Source: Fibrobacter succinogenes
Lineage (GTDB): Bacteria > Fibrobacterota > Fibrobacteria > Fibrobacterales > Fibrobacteraceae
DNA length: 64,000 bases
Direction: 5' to 3'
Assembly (NCBI GenBank): GCA_902768715.1
Contig: CACXMH010000004.1
Location: forward strand, 62,001-126,000
Shown here: in pieces, positions 19,282-21,453 of the stretch
Layout: every line of letters starts with the position of its first letter
Numbering within the stretch: the stretch's first letter is position 1
Position numbers and translations under genes: made by a program
The notes under the pieces: model-generated
Databases searched by the model: none
What the model saw: only the letters and a program-made list of their open reading frames with translations
Told to the model about the DNA's origin: nothing

Positions 19282-21453
19282 ATGTCCGAAACACGCGCAA
19301 ACGATTTTTCCCGATATTTCGAGCTAAAAAAACAACTAGAAGAAGCTAGCCGCCTTTACTACAAAGACGGTTATTCCCCCATGAGCGACCAGGACTTCGA
19401 TTTTGGCCTCAAGGAAATGGAGGCTCTAGAAGCGAAGTATCCGGAATTGCGGGGAAACGCGTCGCTCACCCAACATGTAGGAAGCGACCTGACCAACGAT
19501 TTCGTGAAGGTTTCTCATGCTGTTCCCATGCTGAGTATCGCCAACGTGTACAGCGCCGAAGAAATGGCGGAGTTTGTGAAAGCTGCGGAAGAGGGAATTG
19601 CTGGATTAGATTCTTCGACTCCGCTACACTCCGCTCAGGATGACAAGAAGGCGAAATGGATTTGCGAGCGTAAAATCGACGGAGTCTCCCTTTCTCTGGT
19701 ATATGAGAACGGACGCTTGAAACAGGCGGCCACCCGCGGCGACGGAGCCCAGGGCGATGACGTGACGCTGAACGCACTCACCGTCGCAGACATTCCCGAA
19801 ACTCTAGATGCAAAGAAACTGAAAATCGACCCGTCTGAAATCCCGCAGGGTACATTCGAAGTCCGTGGCGAAGTCTACATGGAACGCTCCGCCTTCGAGG
19901 AACTGAACGACCGATTCGTTTTAGAAGGCAAGAAAACATTCCAGAACCCCCGCAATACGGTTTCGGGTTCCCTAAAGCTCAAAAGCGTAGCCGAATGCAA
20001 GACCAGGCCCATGCGCTTTCTGGCCTACCACATCCCGCAAAGCAACAACAGCACCCACGAAGAGAACCTGCAACAGCTGAAAAAACTGGGGTTCCACACC
20101 AACGATTTCTGGACGGCAGAGAATGTCGATGAAATCATGAAGATTTCGGAGCAGATTGGCGAGAGCCGCGACAGCCTCCCCTTCGATATCGACGGCATGG
20201 TGGTAAAGCTGAACGACCTTGCTATGCAGCGAGCTCTGGGCACTACCAGCAAGAGCCCCCGATGGGCCATCGCCTACAAGTTCAAGGCCGAGCGAGCCTA
20301 CACGCCGCTTCTTTCTGTAGAATTCCAGGTAGGCCGCACCGGTGCGGTGACACCTGTAGCAAACCTCGCACCCGTGCGTCTTGCGGGCACTACCGTCAAG
20401 CGCGCCACCCTCCACAACTTCGACGAAGTGGCCCGTCTGGACCTGCATTACGGAGACACCGTGGGCGTCGAGAAGGGTGGAGAAATCATCCCGAAAATTA
20501 CCGATGTCAAGAAGGAACTTCGCCCCATTGGGGCAGAGCCGGTCATTGCCCCCACGAAGTGCCCCGAATGCGGCGAACCCCTCACCCATGTAGATGGCGA
20601 AGTCATTCTCCGCTGCGAAAACATGCACTGCGCAGCACAGGTGCAATGCCTGTTCGAGCATTTCGTGAGCCGCGAGGCCATGAACATCGAGAATCTGGGC
20701 CCTTCGCTCATCGCAAGCCTTATCGCCACAGGGAAAATCAAGCGGATTCCCGACCTTTACCGCCTCACGCTAGAAGACCTGGAATCCCAGGAACGCATGG
20801 CCAAGAAAAGCGCCAAAAACGTCTTTGACGCCATCGCCGCCTCCAAGGAACGGAGTCTGGAAAACCTGCTCCACGGTCTCGGCATCCGTTTTGTAGGCCG
20901 CACCAGCGCAAGGAACATCGCCAAGCATTTCCGCACTCTTGAAAAAATCCGCACGGCTACCGTCGAAGATTTGCAGAATGTGACCGACGTGGGCGAACGC
21001 ATCGGAAAGTCCGTCTATGACTTTTTCCACACGGAACGCTACACCCAGGAAATCGACGAACTGATTGAACTAGGCTGCCCCACGGAATTCAAGGGTGTCG
21101 TGAAGACGCTTTTCCAGGGGCAGACCGCCGTCATTACGGGAACGCTCCCGACCATGGACCGGGACGAGGCCCGCAAGCTTATCGAAGAGAACGGCGGCAA
21201 GGTCGCAGGCTCCGTCAGCAAGAAGACCAGCTGGGTTTTGGCAGGCGAAGCCGCCGGCAGTAAACTCACCAAGGCCAACGAACTGGGAATTCCCGTGCAC
21301 GACGAAGCTTGGCTCCTGGAGCAAATCGCCGCGGCAGATTCCGACGCAGGTAGCGATAGCGGCAATAACGGCGATGACTCCGCTAACGATTCGACAAGCA
21401 TCGAAAAAGAAAAGCCCGCTGCACAGGGCAACGGGCAACTGAGCTTGTTCTAA
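19282..21453 (+). CDS. ligA: NAD-dependent DNA ligase with in-frame repeat insertion and clamp-motif tail
   Basis: LigA seals nicks during replication and repair. The adenylated lysine is K131 in CERKIDG. The OB-fold follows, then a four-Cys zinc finger (CPECGEP ... CENMHCAAQ), helix-hairpin-helix repeats and a BRCT domain ([18 protein letters not shown]). At 723 residues it is about 50 longer than usual for two reasons. Residues 110-122 ([13 protein letters not shown]) are encoded by an intergenic-type repeat. After the BRCT domain there is an acidic, Ser/Asn-rich tail of about 45 residues that ends exactly in QLSLF, the consensus beta-clamp-binding pentapeptide. The convergent OmpA-like gene ends 3 bp away. 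Confidence 0.96.
19608..19648 (+). repeat. Intergenic-type repeat (GTCATCCTGAG family) inside ligA
   Basis: AGATTCTTCGACTCCGCTAC and the adjoining ACTCCGCTCAGGATGACAAG match the widespread bacterial intergenic repeat whose opposite strand translates as [12 protein letters not shown]. Related copies lie between genes at 47567-47634 and 60859-60899. Here it is within a coding region and keeps the frame. Confidence 0.75.

Follow-up and report, generated by a model that had tools for sequence, protein, structure and literature searches.

We have observed that the NAD+-dependent DNA ligase (LigA) encoded within a 64,000-nt stretch of Fibrobacter succinogenes DNA (the window) ends in a consensus-type clamp-binding peptide, QLSLF, carried on an acidic tail, and that a tail and motif of this type close the LigA of every Fibrobacter genome compared. 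From comparison of these sequences in this gut bacterium and its relatives, it is very probable that the tail tethers the ligase to the beta clamp for Okazaki fragment maturation. The extent to which the clamp coordinates this process in bacteria is unsettled, since the LigA proteins of E. coli and H. pylori reportedly bind the clamp and that of M. tuberculosis reportedly does not. As we describe below, the tip occurs in every sampled member of 2 genera that are unrelated to one another, whereas their relatives lack it, and it offers a natural comparative experiment in which a short linear motif has been gained repeatedly on one essential enzyme.

The ligA gene is complete, occupies positions 19282..21453 (+ strand) and specifies a protein of 723 amino acids. 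All 5 domain matches that characterize a LigA were above the Pfam cut-off: adenylation (residues 72-337), OB (341-415), zinc finger (426-452), HhH (529-589) and BRCT (609-680, at 21106..21321, + strand; PF00533, E 4e-17). No other BRCT protein was found in the genome. After residue 682, at the end of the BRCT helix, the protein continues for 41 residues of low complexity and net charge -6. These consist of a linker rich in Ala, Ser, Asp, Asn, Glu and Gly (residues 683-718; 21328..21435, + strand), assigned from the length and charge of the tails in 70 relatives and from AlphaFold confidence, and the candidate clamp-binding motif itself (residues 719-723; 21436..21450, + strand), so that the last letters are ...NGQLSLF and the TAA stop codon at 21451-21453 follows directly. 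The pLDDT was below 50, at approximately 28, for residues 687-723, as compared with approximately 85-90 in the BRCT domain. By this model the tail is predicted to be disordered and the motif, at its extreme end, would be accessible to a partner; in these respects the gene is as the preliminary description had portrayed it, with a disordered extension after the BRCT domain ending exactly in QLSLF. A separate feature of the same protein is an insert in a loop of the adenylation domain (window positions 19609-19645, residues ~110-121), which reads GATTCTTCGACTCC...CTCCGCTCAGGATGACA and resembles a dispersed palindromic repeat translated in frame. The LigA proteins of relatives have other inserts, of other lengths, at this position, and the insert is therefore lineage-variable.

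Beta-clamp motifs follow the rule Q-phi-x-[L/M]-[F/L] or Q-phi-x-[L/M]-x-[F/L], and the sequence flanking them is mostly acidic (PMC11139829). The window's QLSLF conforms to this rule. It also fits QL(S/D)LF, which had been put forward as the consensus, although that formula is too narrow, as QxxLx[L/F] is likewise allowed and is used by many of the relatives. The known motifs of Pol II, Pol III alpha, Pol IV, Pol V and Hda employ the same residues in the same 5- and 6-residue forms as Fibrobacter LigA, with acidic flanks and often at the C-terminus; the difference is that here the carrier is LigA.

The genome contains a single DnaN, most of whose pocket residues are those of the E. coli clamp: R152, L155, T172, G174, H175, R176, L177, P242, V247, Y323, M362 and P363 are retained. 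Several positions differ, mainly in subsite II, with V360 replaced by Leu, R246 by Ala, N320 by Asp, V344 by Ile, M364 by Thr and R365 by His. The Pol III alpha of the same genome contains a canonical internal motif, KGQMSLFDMG, whose QMSLF differs at a single residue from the QLSLF of the window's ligase; the LigA of one relative (L059) ends in precisely this QMSLF. Using patterns that are blind to motifs with extra residues after them, we also searched the 2.84 Mb genome for similar protein ends. Q-hydrophobic-x-L-F followed by a stop codon occurred at 28 sites, of which that in LigA was the only one in a convincing gene. We rejected the remaining 27 as short or implausible frames or because TGG had been taken as a stop. 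This search disclosed no second convincing 5-residue motif at an exact protein C-terminus in the genome. The 6-residue pattern returned RNase HI, which is considered below, a spurious frame and a protein ending in QMSLGF, which looks like an outer-membrane barrel and whose motif is probably due to chance.

LigA matches were obtained from 159 of 168 Fibrobacterota genomes, and we compared the C-termini of 70 Fibrobacter proteins with those of 40 proteins from other genera and families of the phylum. All 70 Fibrobacter proteins possess a tail (18-70 residues, median 37, mean charge -5), and each closes with Q-x-x-L-F, Q-x-x-L-x-[L/I] or QMDLFG. The commonest ends were QLSLF (24 proteins), QTSLF (18), QISLF (5), QLSLNL (5) and QMSLDL (3), and those found once or twice were QMSLEL, QMTLNL, QMDLFG, QLNLF, QFSLF, QISLGI, QMTLDL, QMSLNL, QLSLNI, QLSLQL, QMSLF and QQELPL. 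The Gln is invariant, and the Leu and a final hydrophobic residue are likewise kept in all 70. These variants lie largely within the published degeneracy of clamp motifs, with the reservation that Thr at motif position 2, in 18 proteins, is outside the strict aliphatic rule. The interchange of 5- and 6-residue forms at one orthologous site is as expected from selection for fit to the clamp pocket. Absence of the motif from close relatives, which had been named beforehand as the outcome that would count against a clamp-binding role, was not encountered.

The linker, in contrast, changes in length and wording almost species by species while the motif is kept, and we found no loss of the motif in the 70 genomes despite this turnover. 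It is this pattern that contradicts an origin of the tail as a neutral extension, arising by read-through or repeat insertion and bearing the motif by chance. Rapid linker turnover, with repeat-like segments in some proteins, is what such an origin would produce, but a motif retained in 70 of 70 rewritten linkers is not, and with the strong in-frame excess in other phyla and a second genus-wide case in Alistipes (both described below) we regard it as exceedingly improbable. As to the segments themselves, repeat-like in-frame sequences were seen in the linkers of L023, L024, L066, L058 and L070, reading GGCTCGCAATGAC and GTCATCCTGGAGGGAGC (the latter in tandem in L070), which points to dispersed repeats as a source of change in the disordered linker.

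The same comparison bears on the identity of the partner. Acidic residues followed by a final Phe give the tail a superficial resemblance to the SSB tip (DDDIPF), and hydrophobic C-termini can act as protease signals, so the tip might be an SSB-like peptide, a ligand for some other hub or a C-terminal degradation signal, its likeness to a clamp motif being coincidental. Yet the Gln is present in 70 of 70 proteins, the tip switches among QxxLF, QxxLxL and QMDLFG in the manner of clamp motifs, QMSLF occurs in the Pol III alpha that this genome encodes, and the IPF ending of SSB tips occurs in none of the 70 Fibrobacter proteins; we therefore consider a partner or role of this kind unlikely.

None of the 40 LigA proteins from other Fibrobacterota genera and families had the tail or motif. 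Of these, 38 stop shortly past the BRCT domain, and the remaining 2, both of genus g4, continue into other frames or reach the end of the stretch fetched. In the LigA tree the Fibrobacter proteins are set apart from the rest by a branch supported at 100/98, and over the 85 rows of the tree the end class must have changed at least 13 times, including one gain and at least 12 changes within the genus; 3 separate moves to the 6-residue form were counted, and no motif losses. Since the tail is absent from the 40 other proteins, these sequences place a single gain of tail and motif on the Fibrobacter stem, with retention ever since. The motif is a trait of the genus Fibrobacter and not of Fibrobacterota, so that the expectation of a conserved QLSLF on a variable linker held within the genus (70 of 70) and failed in the rest of the phylum (0 of 40).

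To look beyond the phylum, we scanned 84,980 species genomes for the LigA BRCT segment KLxKAxxLG followed, after 55-114 bases, by QxxLF and a stop codon. The scan undercounts, because one Lys-Leu codon choice and one linker range were fixed. It yielded 96 stretches, 87 of them LigA, and 74 of these 87 closed in frame with QxxLF, whereas the LigA frame identified in the remaining 13 did not end at the match. As chance predicts about twice as many out-of-frame as in-frame matches, most of the 74 are therefore real. By record title they span 12 phyla, several represented by a single metagenome assembly: Bacteroidota, Fibrobacterota, Spirochaetota, Pseudomonadota, Verrucomicrobiota, Fidelibacterota, Campylobacterota, Planctomycetota, Nitrospirota, Myxococcota, Lentisphaerota and Bacillota. 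Within Alistipes, the 30 best-scoring of 58 LigA proteins all had the motif (QGTLF, QGSLF, QTSLF and similar) on variable tails, and a QxxLF ending was found in none of 40 genomes sampled across other Bacteroidota. Most Alistipes tips have Gly at position 2, which departs from the strict rule, and are candidate binders only. A quick multi-phylum tree gave 17 end changes, at least 10 of which are forced by supported branches. Taken at the level of sequence, the LigA tip is an uncommon and patchy trait that was gained repeatedly, and it appears to be fixed in 2 genera, Fibrobacter and Alistipes.

The RNase HI gene of the window (15010..15807, - strand) specifies a Cauli_VI N-terminal domain and an RNase H domain, both recognized by Pfam, followed by an Ala/Pro-rich tail with QMSLPL at the C-terminus (motif codons 15013-15030), the end of the protein reading GQMSLPL. 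The 11 genomes of the window's subclade all share one and the same tip, KDPKTGQMSLPL, on Ala/Pro-rich linkers that vary. A tip of the QMSLPL type was missing from the 33 other Fibrobacter genomes, and so was present in 11 of 44 sampled. The view that RNase HI shares the design of LigA is thus sound for the window's subclade but does not extend to the genus. The sister genera g6 and g5 show the reverse arrangement to most of Fibrobacter, with clamp-like tips on RNase HI and none on LigA: the g6 proteins end in QMDLFG, QLDLFG or, without Gln, SLDLFG, and those of g5 in QIQLEF (L189-L192). In 2 basal Fibrobacter the RNase HI terminates in GDLFAGLD, perhaps the remnant of a clamp tip that has decayed. 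Speculatively, the RNase HI tether predates that of LigA in this family, and it often disappeared from lineages whose LigA acquired a tether. A search of 15 genomes of other phyla with the Fibrobacter RNase HI gave no match, a result to which we attach no weight. PolA, considered as a third tethered enzyme, was rejected, as it has no tail.

We propose that the LigA tail acts as a flexible tether, in which QLSLF would occupy the hydrophobic pocket that DnaN offers to peptides between its domains II and III, and the linker would let the ligase body search nearby DNA. Docking would hold LigA near clamps left on lagging-strand DNA, and nicks would be sealed promptly after primer removal and gap filling. 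Clamps stay on completed lagging-strand segments, and a tethered LigA would therefore be near the nick by the time Pol I has completed its work. In the window's subclade, the QMSLPL tether of RNase HI could make primer removal clamp-linked as well, and equivalent LigA tips arose independently in other bacterial lineages. That the tip binds DnaN, tethers the ligase and serves Okazaki fragment maturation is inferred from these sequences; the clamp-tethering of LigA suggested in the preliminary description gains support from the motif in 70 of 70 proteins, the variable linker, the QMSLF of Pol III alpha and the DnaN pocket. The tail is dispensable for Okazaki fragment maturation in general, because most bacteria, the sister genera included, lack it.

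The main live rival is that the tail binds the clamp for mismatch, base-excision or gap repair and not for Okazaki fragment maturation. Many clamp ligands are repair proteins (PMC11139829), LigA is the general ligase for both replication and repair, and the RNase HI of most Fibrobacter is without a motif. Set against this, the window's subclade has motifs on 2 enzymes of Okazaki fragment maturation, LigA and RNase HI, and in vitro the beta clamp furthers ligation that is coupled to nick translation by Pol I, the loaded E. coli clamp slowing nick translation and favouring early ligation (PMC6010275). We regard a repair role as possible, although doubtful, and prefer tethering for Okazaki fragment maturation.

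An interaction of bacterial ligase with the clamp is known already from E. coli and H. pylori, the former reportedly described by Lopez de Saro and O'Donnell in 2001. The E. coli LigA is shorter than that of the window (671 as against 723 amino acids), presumably ends straight past its BRCT domain, and has no motif assigned to it in the literature searched. Like the Fibrobacter ligase as proposed here, it contacts the clamp, and the contact is linked to prompt ligation (PMC6010275). A 2024 review lists the ligase-clamp interaction with no affinity value and cites a report that E. coli LigA binds beta (PMC11139829). For H. pylori, a LigA peptide was co-crystallised with the beta clamp and a value of 1.25 uM was given for the full ligase (PMC4976356). 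That ligase contacts the clamp pocket, as we suggest for Fibrobacter; however, its peptide, 554-QEFIRSLF-561, is near the BRCT domain and not C-terminal, its Gln was unseen in the density, and the protein lacks a flexible tail with a consensus motif at its C-terminal end (PMC4976356). The M. tuberculosis LigA showed no direct binding to its own clamp (PMC3335792).

Eukaryotic DNA ligase I, which binds PCNA through a PIP box, follows the same tether logic, with a short peptide on a disordered segment. The comparison made earlier with this ligase is apt as an analogy of working, but the LigA tip is not itself a PIP box, which would read QxxPhi-xx-aromatic-aromatic and bind PCNA; here the end is QLSLF and the clamp is DnaN. 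The PIP box of ligase I is a different motif for a different clamp, and lies at the N-terminus of an ATP-dependent enzyme. In the open-access literature we found no earlier description of a consensus clamp motif at the LigA C-terminus, and no report of its fixation in a genus or its repeated gain; a conserved and recurrent motif at this site thus appears to be undescribed there. On balance we lean toward the wider proposal that a clamp tether evolved repeatedly and independently at the C-terminus of the bacterial replicative ligase, and in Fibrobacteraceae also on RNase HI, and that in these lineages it organises Okazaki fragment maturation on the clamp in the manner known from eukaryotes and archaea. 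The removable 5-residue tip provides a clean separation-of-function handle, which can be cut, swapped or transplanted onto a tail-less ligase, and clamp-tethered sealing of new DNA is now directly testable.

Two minor observations concern the neighbourhood and history of these genes. A gene of the Porphyromonas-type peptidyl-arginine deiminase / agmatine deiminase family (13105-14151, + strand; PF04371, E 1e-90) sits a few genes upstream. Also, the 3' part of ligA in L005, L007, L011 and L014 (genomes G073, G109, G128 and G116) takes a position close to the base of the genus. By contrast, the RNase HI proteins of the same 4 genomes are among the closest to that of the window, with 87-95% identity. 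Possibly, this mismatch reflects exchange of ligA segments between species.
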